From the NCBI GenBank assembly GCA_040757115.1, contig JBFLYA010000179.1, positions 1 through 7,589 of the forward strand: a stretch of 7,589 nucleotides of DNA, written 5' to 3'. Each line of letters opens with the position of its first letter. Position 1 is the stretch's first letter. This document shows, one piece after another, positions 1,886 through 6,160 of this stretch. The translations under genes were made by a program, and so were the position numbers. Below the pieces are notes generated by a model, which ran no database searches, was not told the origin of the DNA, and saw nothing but the letters and a program-made list of their open reading frames with translations. The DNA is from a bacterium. Its GTDB lineage: Bacteria > UBA9089 > CG2-30-40-21 > SBAY01.

Positions 1886-2043
1886 GTAAGCGTTCAGCCA
1901 TCAGGTATCAGCAATCAGTTAACATCCAGGAAATCAGGATAGTAACAAATCCTACAATTTTGCGTAAATGGTGTCTATGTGTCTGGTAGTCTATGTAACC
2001 CAGACACTTAGACACCCAGATACCAGACTACCTGAACGGTTAC
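1886..2043. repeat. Element 1: 158-base intergenic element with 12-base inverted ends
   Basis: The ends read GTAAGCGTTCAG on the plus strand (1886-1897) and GTAACCGTTCAG on the minus strand (2043 to 2032), an 11/12 inverted match. Inside the left end, tandem 7-base units continue the motif: CGTTCAG, CCATCAG, GTATCAG, CAATCAG (1891-1918). The right part holds a strong hairpin (1971-2015). The right end overlaps the last four bases of murG, including its stop codon. The left end stops 28 bases before the ATPase start, so the element fills almost the whole murG-ATPase gap. No credible coding sequence is seen within it. The structure is MITE-like or REP-like; mobility is inferred, not shown. Confidence 0.65.
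1971..2015 (-). other. Long hairpin 25 bases downstream of murG
   Basis: GTGTCTATGTGTCTGG (1971-1986) and CCAGACACTTAGACAC (2000-2015) pair over 16 positions with one mismatch, around a 13-base loop. A competing 8-base inverted repeat, GGTAGTCT (1985-1992) with AGACTACC (2025-2032), overlaps it. On the operon transcript the hairpin lies just after the murG stop. No T-run follows on the minus strand, so it is not a standard intrinsic terminator. It could protect the upstream mRNA end or simply be part of the repeat element. Confidence 0.6.
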
Positions 2044-3092
2044 GAATAAATAATATTAACCACATTTTGGGTTGCATCTGCCGTTTTAAGCGGCTGATAA
2101 TTTTCAGCCATTATTTTGAGTTTATGACGATTTTCGATTAACTCAATAATAATCTTGCCTAAATTTTCAGATGATAGTTCTCTATCTTTTATCATTATTG
2201 CCGTTCCCTTTTCCACCAGAGGTCTGGCGTTATATTCCTGATGATTATCTGTGGCATAGGGATATGGGATTAAAATTGCTGGCAAATTACAAGCAATAAT
2301 TTCCGCGATGGTTGTTGCTCCGGCTCGACAGATAACCAAATCTGCCACTTGATACGCTACGGGTAAATCATAAAAAAACTTTTCAACGACTATTTTTACT
2401 TTTGATTTTGTTTCCTTTATGACTTGATAATCTTCCTCCCCGGTTGCCCAAATTATTTGTATTTTATCATCTGGGAGAAGATTTAGTGTTTGTTTCATCA
2501 CCTCATTAATTTTATGTGCCCCTTTGCTTCCGCCAAAGACAAGCAAGGTAAATTTATCTCCACTTATCTCAAATCTCTTTAGTGCCTCCTGTCTATTTAT
2601 CTGTCCAATCTGTAATCTAACGGGATTGCCTGTTAGCACGGTTTTTTTCGTGGGTAGAAATCGATTAGAATCGGCAAAACTAATGGCTATTTTATCGACA
2701 AATTTAGCCAGCAAGCGAGTGGCTTTACCAGGAATAAAATTTTGCTCATGAATAACGGTTTTAATCTTAAATAAGACTGCTCCTAAGACTACAGGAACTG
2801 AGGCATAACCTCCCATTCCCAGAACAATATCTGGTTTAAACTCTATAAGATACCTTATCCCGACAAAAAAGGTTTTTATTAGTTTAATGAAAAACTTAAT
2901 TTTATTTTTTCCAGTCCAGCCTTCGACATCAAGCCCTTTAAATTTAAACCCTTGTTTTTGAAGGATATCTGACTCAATCCCTTTTGTGGTACCTATAAAT
3001 AAAATCTCGGTCTTTTCTTTTAATCTCTCGGCAATTGCCAGAGCCGGGTAGATATGTCCTAATGTCCCACCGCCTGTAATTATAATCCGCAT
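2040..3092 (-). CDS. murG: UDP-GlcNAc:lipid I GlcNAc transferase MurG
   Basis: MurG is the GT28-family glycosyltransferase that moves GlcNAc from UDP-GlcNAc to lipid I, giving lipid II on the inner face of the membrane. At 350 residues it has the normal length. Visible motifs are the N-terminal glycine loop GGGTLGHIYPALA (7-19), GMGGYASVP (92-100), HEQNFIPG (115-122), TGNPVR (154-159), the second glycine loop FGGSKGAHKIN (186-196), CRAGATTIAE (255-264) and the nucleotide-sugar site PYPYATDNHQ (276-285). The first loop reads GGTLGH where the family usually has GGTGGH; the histidine (H13) is kept. The ATG follows the ftsW stop by 21 bases with purine-rich AGAAGAGG upstream, so the two genes are probably cotranscribed. 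The last codon and the stop (TCG TAA) overlap the GTAACCGTTCAG boundary motif of element 1. Identification is firm. Confidence 0.97.
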   Translation of the reverse strand: MRIIITGGGTLGHIYPALAIAERLKEKTEILFIGTTKGIESDILQKQGFKFKGLDVEGWTGKNKIKFFIKLIKTFFVGIRYLIEFKPDIVLGMGGYASVPVVLGAVLFKIKTVIHEQNFIPGKATRLLAKFVDKIAISFADSNRFLPTKKTVLTGNPVRLQIGQINRQEALKRFEISGDKFTLLVFGGSKGAHKINEVMKQTLNLLPDDKIQIIWATGEEDYQVIKETKSKVKIVVEKFFYDLPVAYQVADLVICRAGATTIAEIIACNLPAILIPYPYATDNHQEYNARPLVEKGTAIMIKDRELSSENLGKIIIELIENRHKLKIMAENYQPLKTADATQNVVNIIYS

Positions 3093-4238: not shown

Positions 4239-4300
4239 ATAATCCTCCTTGAGTATGTTATAGCACTTATTAATCGAAATTTGACCCAGATATGGCTATG

Positions 4301-4435
4301 AAATTCCAAATCACAAATTCCAAATTCCAAACAAATTCGAATGACCAAAATTCAAAACATTACCTCCCATAGTTTGGTATTTAGTACTTGAAATTTGGTG
4401 CTTATTTGAAATTTGGTGCTTGGGATTTGGGATTT
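4301..4435. repeat. AT-rich long imperfect inverted repeat between murD and ftsW
   Basis: The left arm (4301-4338, starting AAATTCCAAATCACAAATTC) and the right arm read on the minus strand (4435 to 4398, starting AAATCCCAAATCCCAAGCAC) align without gaps at roughly 28 of 38 positions. The right side also holds a perfect 16-base direct repeat, TTGAAATTTGGTGCTT, at 4388-4403 and 4406-4421. No open frame of note is present in the stretch. With the adjoining murD tail element it occupies most of the 202-base murD-ftsW gap; the ftsW ribosome site lies outside it. It looks like a decayed repeat unit of a kind common in repeat-rich environmental genomes. Function is unknown. Confidence 0.55.
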
Positions 4436-4440
4436 TTTAC

Positions 4441-5862
4441 TTATCCACCCTGAGTATAATAACTGCTATAACAGCGTTCATTCAAAAACTGAATGCTGAA
4501 TGCTGAACGCTTACTTATTCTTGCTACTTCTTCCTTGAATACCCGGCCTCTTTCTTCATAGTTTTTAAACATATCATAACTTGAGCAGGCGGGTGAAAAA
4601 AGGATTGTATCCTTTGGTTTAGATAGTTTATATGCTAATTCAACTGCCTCGTGTAAATTCTGGACTTTAAAGATATTATCAAAATGGACACCTTGAGCGA
4701 TTTTATCCTTTGCTTCACCCAACAAAATCAATGTCTTTACTTTTGCTGATAACAAAGGATTTAGTCGGCTATAGTCACATCCTTTGCTTCGACCACCAGC
4801 AATTAAGATAATTGGTTTATTAAAACTTTGCAAGGCAACAAGGACTGAATCAACATTGGTTGCCTTTGAATCATTAATAAACCGTATGCCGTTAATACAA
4901 GCCACCTCTTCTATGCGGTGCTCGACCCCTTTAAATTCTCTTAATGTCTTTCTGACCACCTCGAAATCAATTTTAAGAATAGCACTTACTCCCAGAGCCG
5001 ATAGGACATTCTGGAGATTGTGAGGCCCGATTAAGGCTATATCTTGAGTTTTGCATATCTTATTTTCTTGTCCTTCAAATCGGCTAACAATCTGATTTCC
5101 TTTTAGAAAGATACCGTTTTCAAAGTCTTTTTTAGTCAGACTGAAAAAAATTGGTTTAGCCTTAGATTGTTGACTTACCTCCATAATATTTGAATCATCT
5201 GCATTTAGAACCATAAAATCATCTTTAGTCTGGTTCTCAAAGATTCTTGCTTTTATTTTCAAGTAATCATTCAGGTCTTTATGTCTATCAAGGTGGTCTG
5301 GGGTAAAATTTAAAAAAACACTGATATTGGGTCTAAAATCTTTTATGGTTTCTAATTGAAAACTGCTTATTTCTACAACCACAAGATAATCTTTGTCAAT
5401 TTTATCTATTGCCTCGGATAATGGATAACCGATATTGCCGGCGACGATAACTTTTTGGTCAGCGGTTTTTAAGATTTCGCCAATTAATGTTGTAGTCGTT
5501 GTTTTGCCATTTGTGCCGGTAACCGCAATCACTCGATTTTGTGGTAAAAATTGATAGGCTAATTCCATTTCTGAGATAATCGGAATACCCAATTTTTTCG
5601 CCTTTTGTAAAAATGGAATCTCTACCGGAATTCCAGGACTGACAACGATTAATTCACAGCGGGGTAAAGAGTCTTCCTTATGTCCGTCTGTTTCTATTTC
5701 TATGTCTAAATTTTTTAATTGAGTAATTTCGTTTTGCAATTGTGAGGCTGGTTTTGAGTCAGAGATTTTTACCTTTGCCCCATATTTAAGTAACAATTTA
5801 GCCGCTGACAAACCGCTTCTCGCCATGCCAACAATAATTATTCTTTTATCTTTAATATTCAT
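4441..5862 (-). CDS. murD: UDP-N-acetylmuramoylalanine--D-glutamate ligase MurD, with repeat-encoded C-terminal tail
   Basis: MurD is the cytoplasmic ATP-dependent ligase that adds D-glutamate to UDP-MurNAc-L-Ala. From the ATG at 5862 it has 473 residues. Motifs are GMARSGLS (12-19), the P-loop TGTNGKTTTT (116-125), SSFQLE (166-171), LNFTPDHLDRH (184-194), DYLKIKARIFEN with the probable carbamylated lysine (K204), EHRIEEV (314-320), NDSKATN (330-336), GGRSKG (356-361) and SPACSSYDMF (423-432). A GTG at 5889 in the same frame would add nine residues, but it lies inside the repeat boundary motif with no ribosome site, so ATG 5862 is preferred; its own site (AAGAAAAG) is weak. The family domain seems to end near residue 450. 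The last 23 residues (K451-G473) are encoded by GTAAGCGTTCAG, its CATTCAG repeats and flanking sequence, and are probably a late addition. Identification is firm; the start is moderately sure. Confidence 0.95.
   Translation of the reverse strand: MNIKDKRIIIVGMARSGLSAAKLLLKYGAKVKISDSKPASQLQNEITQLKNLDIEIETDGHKEDSLPRCELIVVSPGIPVEIPFLQKAKKLGIPIISEMELAYQFLPQNRVIAVTGTNGKTTTTTLIGEILKTADQKVIVAGNIGYPLSEAIDKIDKDYLVVVEISSFQLETIKDFRPNISVFLNFTPDHLDRHKDLNDYLKIKARIFENQTKDDFMVLNADDSNIMEVSQQSKAKPIFFSLTKKDFENGIFLKGNQIVSRFEGQENKICKTQDIALIGPHNLQNVLSALGVSAILKIDFEVVRKTLREFKGVEHRIEEVACINGIRFINDSKATNVDSVLVALQSFNKPIILIAGGRSKGCDYSRLNPLLSAKVKTLILLGEAKDKIAQGVHFDNIFKVQNLHEAVELAYKLSKPKDTILFSPACSSYDMFKNYEERGRVFKEEVARISKRSAFSIQFLNERCYSSYYTQGG
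4474..4514. repeat. Element 2: short inverted-repeat unit inside the murD 3' end
   Basis: On the minus strand it reads GTAAGCGTTCAG (4514 to 4503), continuing as 7-base units CGTTCAG, CATTCAG, CATTCAG. It closes with GCGTTCA on the plus strand (4474-4480), which pairs with TGAACGC (4504-4510). The result is a small hairpin-forming unit of 41 bases with a GTAA foot. The whole unit is translated within murD. The match to the edges of elements 1 and 3 is exact or nearly so over the 12-base motif, although the left boundary keeps only seven bases of it. Confidence 0.55.
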
Positions 5863-5919
5863 TTTCGTTCTTTTCTTGCAACCGTTCACCGCAGAGACAC
5901 AGAGACGCAGAGAAGAAAA

Positions 5920-6104
5920 TTAAAAACTATTTACCAGATGCTTCATTCCATTCCTGATTTTCATCAGGACAATCTCTGATTTTCATCAGAGCAAGCTTTT
6001 AAGGACCGAGATATCATGATTGATTAACAAATTTGGTTGTGATGTCCTATGTATTTTACCATGATTGCACCAATAATCTTTTCTGTTATCTGATTTATTT
6101 CCAT
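5920..6104 (-). pseudogene. Remnant of a GxxExxY-family protein gene with a deleted middle
   Basis: From the ATG at 6104 the minus strand encodes MEINQITEKIIGAIMV before the frame runs into unrelated sequence and stops at 6024. This matches the usual start of GxxExxY proteins (PDDEXK_3-like, roughly 125 residues), which typically read MEINxITExIIGAAIEVH. Near the other end, GMKHLVNSF followed by TAA (5949 to 5920) resembles a plausible C-terminus of the same family. The core, including the GxxExxY motif that names the family, is missing, and the two parts are not in one frame. The intact family has no firmly known function. The N-terminal match is good; the C-terminal match is weaker. The remnant is enclosed by the inverted ends of element 3 and is not expected to make a working protein. 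Confidence 0.55.
5952..5991. other. Two tandem perfect hairpins
   Basis: TCCTGAT-TTTC-ATCAGGA (5952-5969) and CTCTGAT-TTTC-ATCAGAG (5974-5991) are two 7-base-pair stems with identical TTTC loops. They share a CTGATTTTCATCAG core repeated at a 22-base offset. They lie in the middle of element 3, where the core of the decayed gene should be, in the transcribed mraY-murD spacer. Their role is unknown; no T-run follows on the minus strand, so termination is unlikely. Confidence 0.6.
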
Positions 6105-6160
6105 ATCTTCTCTGTGAACTCTTGCGTCTGGGCGGTGAATTACCAGCTGAACGGTTACCC

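Follow-up and report, generated by a model that had tools for sequence, protein, structure and literature searches.

The 3′ end of murD

In the window (the whole stretch of DNA analysed, 7,589 nt, which is the entire contig C179 of the genome of an uncultured bacterium, 4.3 Mb with 37 % GC in 462 contigs), mraY, murD, ftsW, murG, an ATPase gene and the beginning of murC lie on the minus strand, and the murD frame runs through a dispersed repeat before it stops. This raises the question of where the end of this enzyme came from. We put the probability at roughly 0.87 that the MurD tail would have been built in at least two transposition steps, the insertion of a small element, here called M1, and then of a second element, M2, and that these were probably near-neutral. 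The features of the window are listed in Table 1.

MurD matches TIGR01087 over positions 1–439 of the 441 in the profile (E 1.8e-136; 455.8 bits, cut-off 212), a full-length equivalog match. Its C-terminus is EEVARIS-KRSAFSIQFLNERCYSSYYTQGG-stop, and the minus-strand frame crosses GTAAGCGTTCAG (4514 to 4503) and then two CATTCAG units, reaching the TAA at 4441–4443. The preliminary description attributed a tail of 23 residues following VFKEEVARIS to a single repeat. The 23 codons stand. However, the element that carries the motif supplies only the first 14 residues (KRSAFSIQFLNERC), and the last nine, YSSYYTQGG, are from a second dispersed element, M2. Without M2, and with one TA kept, MurD would be 464 aa long and end NERC, hence the division into 14 M1 and nine M2 residues. 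The TAA in the motif was correctly described as out of frame in murD and as the stop of murG, but the murG copy (GTAACCGTTCAG) differs by one base.

The GTG listed as the start of the longest murD ORF (5889) falls inside the end of another M1-like copy (5878–5889), and the ATG at 5862 is therefore the likelier start. Automatic gene callers may give MurD nine spurious extra residues from this GTG. A shorter, diverged version of this M1-like copy is also found in a genome of the same genus, G001.

Table 1. Features of the window relevant to the ends of murD and murG
Feature	Position	Strand	Basis
Complete M1 copy, 158 bp, 8-bp duplication ATTTATTC on either side, TAA ends murG	1886..2043	(-)	
murG, stop codon from M1	2040..3092	(-)	Pfam and frame reading
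M2, 212 bp, inverted ends TATAGCASTTATTA, encodes YSSYYTQGG and the present stop	4259..4470	(-)	TA duplication from empty sites
murD CDS including the element-encoded tail	4441..5862	(-)	ATG start, 473 aa; TIGR01087, Pfam Mur ligase domains
23 tail codons and stop TAA	4441..4512	(-)	Frame reading of sequence
M1 remnant (GTAAGCGTTCAG...GAACGCTGT), encodes KRSAFSIQFLNERC	4471..4514	(-)	Exact 12-bp left end
Older M1-like copy in the mraY-murD gap, decayed right end (TGAACGGTTGC), holds probably spurious GTG 5889	5878..6158	(-)	

M1 and M2 in the window

The M1 copy in murD is a remnant of 44 nt that folds as a short hairpin. Its left end is exact, its right end has decayed and no 8-bp duplication is visible, and for this reason it was assigned to M1 by the left end and the repeat motif only, not by both ends plus a duplication. 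The complete copy at murG supplies the stop of that gene, TAA at 2040–2042 within GTAACCGTTCAG, and shortens the protein: MurG ends IIYS, and it would end IIYSLKKGV if the element were absent. Between murG and murC there is an ATPase_2-type gene (730–1857), and the congener has a start at the same place after murG. An Rfam search of the window gave no matches.

M2 ends (TATAGCASTTATTA) were found 147 times in the genome (control, 0), and the copies are ~95 % alike. Paralogous empty sites, 94–100 % identical, contain a single TA, which identifies TA as the target duplication. In murD, M2 occupies the TA of TGT-TAA, an earlier stop, and one TA is present on each side. Full copies read TTATTAGTCAAAATTTTACTC, whereas the window copy reads TTATTATACTC; the 10 bases missing from the latter account for the loss of a TAG that would end the frame four codons into M2. 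Short inverted ends and a TA duplication are shared with IS630/Tc1-like MITEs (miniature inverted-repeat transposable elements), and the TA duplication suggests that M2 belongs to this group. IS630 genes (PF13358) are present, and none of those examined is bounded by M2 ends or represents a matching autonomous element.

As such repeats are found at many contig edges in the assembly and could cause misjoins, the arrangement might be an assembly artefact in which a repeat consensus was misjoined between murD and ftsW. We consider this quite unlikely. M2 occupies a precise TA position and has a single TA per side, like real insertions, the murD copy has a 10-bp deletion of its own, and the flanks are collinear with G001.

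The M1 family

Exact 12-bp M1 ends (GTAASCGTTCAG) number 627 in the genome, while the backwards control gave 1 and base composition predicts ~0.65; a chance origin of the motif was rejected. G001 has 619 copies of GTAASCGTTCAG and G008 has 468, with fewer elsewhere in the phylum (reversed control, 0 to 3). Element pairs and gene-end counts were drawn from sampled stretches totalling 1.46 Mb. These include 36 inverted GTAASCGTTCAG / CTGAACGSTTAC pairs less than 500 bp apart (133–471 bp, commonly 237), and M1 thus has short terminal inverted repeats. Exact 8-bp target duplications flank 15 of the 36, and other duplication lengths are at background. At least 7 of the 8 flanking bases match in 17 pairs (shuffle mean 0.8, maximum 4).

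Several unrelated low-complexity interiors (CACAGAG, GGAGATAAGG and CATCAG types) are found between the same ends (L038, L052, L065, L127 and others). Complete M1 copies in G005 can be as short as 47 and 62 bp, and the murD hairpin remnant is similar. Many contig ends of this genome (G000; e.g. C4:41, C6:112, C8:131 and C10:111) have M1 copies nearby, and repeats of this kind therefore probably fragment the assembly.

One locus, L166, contains a decayed IS66 transposase gene (PF03050, E 1.9e-39) between exact GTAACCGTTCAG ends that are 1563 bp apart (at 893 and 2444–2455). Its reading frames are broken and an 8-bp duplication is not visible. The ends of an intact IS66 gene found in G005, GTAACTACTCAG, closely resemble those of M1. 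IS66 elements in general produce 8-bp duplications (PMC3916326), and because M1 has 8-bp duplications and ends in common with an IS66 gene, it is best read as an IS66-type MITE, most likely mobilized by an IS66-family transposase. M1 resembles IS66 family members such as ISPsy5 (PMC3916326) in its 8-bp duplications, and the decayed IS66 here shares its 12-bp ends. However, no transposase gene is carried by M1 copies, and most of the complete pairs in the sample span 130–470 bp. A literature search found no published IS66 end sequences.

The small M1 copies form hairpins, and M1 might instead be a palindrome of the REP/BIME type, mobilized by the tyrosine transposase associated with REP elements. 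A minus-strand ORF beside an M1 copy in L127, the end of which is itself M1-encoded, may be a gene for such an enzyme, as its motifs look like those of REP-associated tyrosine transposases. Nevertheless, this assignment appears quite unlikely. M1 makes 8-bp target duplications and has its terminal inverted repeats in common with an IS66 gene, and neither is known to be a feature of REP elements.

Predicted structure of MurD with its tail

The conserved MurD fold finishes ahead of the tail in the AlphaFold model (mean pLDDT 90, pTM 0.86), in which the core is predicted to be intact and the tail is of low confidence (residues 463–473 <50). The tail could have been adopted for a function under selection, such as partner binding or stability, and it is consistent with this that the frame stays open across the two elements and that the model continues the last helix into the tail. 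However, we regard adoption as very unlikely, given that the tail is present in one genome only, that model confidence is <50 from residue 463 on and that the congener G001 manages without it.

The MurD C-terminus in relatives

Between the window and G001, both from fragmented assemblies, the flanks are ~98 % identical on both sides, with a break in the alignment where the element begins to differ from G001, at its boundary. The spacing from murD to ftsW is ~30 nt in G001 and ~262 nt in the window, the insert being absent from G001. MurD of G001 is 95 % identical to that of the window but shorter, ending EEVARIGSKTVH-stop (GSKTVH-stop), whereas the window protein ends EEVARISKRSAFSIQFLNERCYSSYYTQGG-stop. 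The MurD ends of members of the same order and phylum differ again, and the tail was found in none of the sampled relatives. These differences indicate that the tail is recent and not ancestral. A comparison with close relatives lacking the repeat had been proposed in the preliminary description; the GSKTVH end of G001 identifies the tail as repeat-derived, and the different, shorter end bears out the claim that a repeat altered the end of MurD. That the tail is ancestral sequence resembling the repeat by coincidence was rejected as extremely improbable: the length of the MurD end does vary across the phylum, but the 95 % identical G001 protein ends differently, no sampled relative has the tail, and the DNA for its second half is a dispersed repeat.

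It is possible that the spacer in G001, GTAAAACTGTTCAC, is also a decayed M1 end, and GSKTVH would then not necessarily be the ancestral MurD end; a blast search with this spacer against the sampled sequence gave no repeat match. Other inserts are present at the murD-ftsW junction in the related genus g3. At this junction, G006 has an element with an inner sequence that resembles M1, and G007 has a similar one. In G005 (L032), a short tandem repeat located there gives MurD the end SDRSDRSDRSD.

Proposed origin of the tail

In the two-step origin favoured here, a small M1 MITE with GTAASCGTTCAG ends would have inserted at the 3′ end of murD, replacing the old last codons and stop, so that MurD came to end ...SKRSAFSIQFLNERC-TAA. 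Later, the unrelated M2 MITE would have hit the TA of the TAA supplied by M1, with loss of this stop and gain of YSSYYTQGG. The loss of 10 bp within M2 would have deleted the TAG and lengthened the frame to the present stop. Most likely, insertions at the far 3′ end swap the stop codon and are tolerated, probably as near-neutral changes because the tail, which is presumably translated, is beyond the conserved last helix.

Comparison with known systems

In Coxiella burnetii, QMITE1 and QMITE2 overlap the 3′ ends of functional genes, including mutT, nagZ, ruvB, recN and others, and EnhC has a 33-aa C-terminal extension derived from a QMITE (PMC5896051). As in MurD, these are MITEs that lie over functional gene ends and provide C-terminal extensions, but the element families and the host are different here. 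Two unrelated elements are stacked in the end of murD, and none so stacked are described for QMITEs in the excerpted text (PMC5896051). In the amidase ECA3499, the enterobacterial repeat RU-1 removed the stop codon, and the protein gained a peptide at its C-terminus, outside the conserved domain (PMC2759123). Here also a small mobile repeat removes a stop and extends the C-terminus past the conserved domain; however, RU-1 is 127 bp, belongs to another family and affects other genes. C-terminal extensions supplied by MITEs have therefore already been described, and MurD is a well-documented further example, not a new kind. It comes from a different lineage, its elements are stacked and a close congener serves as a control.

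The MurD tail would represent a recent, two-layer case (the two genomes are ~98 % identical in DNA in this region) in which transposable elements wrote the C-terminus of a presumably essential enzyme. C-termini can change fast without the fold being touched and, in repeat-rich genomes, annotated C-termini (and N-termini, cf. GTG 5889) may be element sequence.

Other genes ended by M1

M1 ends supply the stop of a long ORF in 16 of 157 cases (sample plus window), eight via the built-in G-TAA and eight by read-through. Because ORF calling relied on a simple length criterion, some small ORFs listed may not be genes. In the sample alone, 11 % of M1 ends are within 30 nt past a stop, compared with 0.9 % of random points, and 0.7 % lie deep within ORFs, compared with 23 %. 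This enrichment just past stops and rarity deep in ORFs indicates that insertions survive at gene ends. The chances are about even that, in this lineage, core enzymes steadily acquire new C-termini through MITEs inserting at the 3′ ends of their genes, a reading that takes in ~40 genes per genome by extrapolation from the sample (stops and tails together), the stacking of elements that are unrelated, and a murD-ftsW junction that was remodelled repeatedly, and apparently independently, across species of the order.

SecA, RuvC, CarB and MurG are cases parallel to MurD, the first three being presumptive identities from motifs recognized by eye. SecA (L125:3060) has the M1-encoded end GNRSGGNLP where G001 has ATV, and RuvC (L127:16906) ends VSVQAVSKGKWKSREKGGKY where G001 has FRPVRLD. 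In CarB (L144:10988), ~30 M1-encoded residues are added, and G001 encodes similar sequence at dozens of other loci. The M1-encoded terminal peptides of these three proteins are absent from the corresponding ends in the congener, and the end of MurG likewise differs there.
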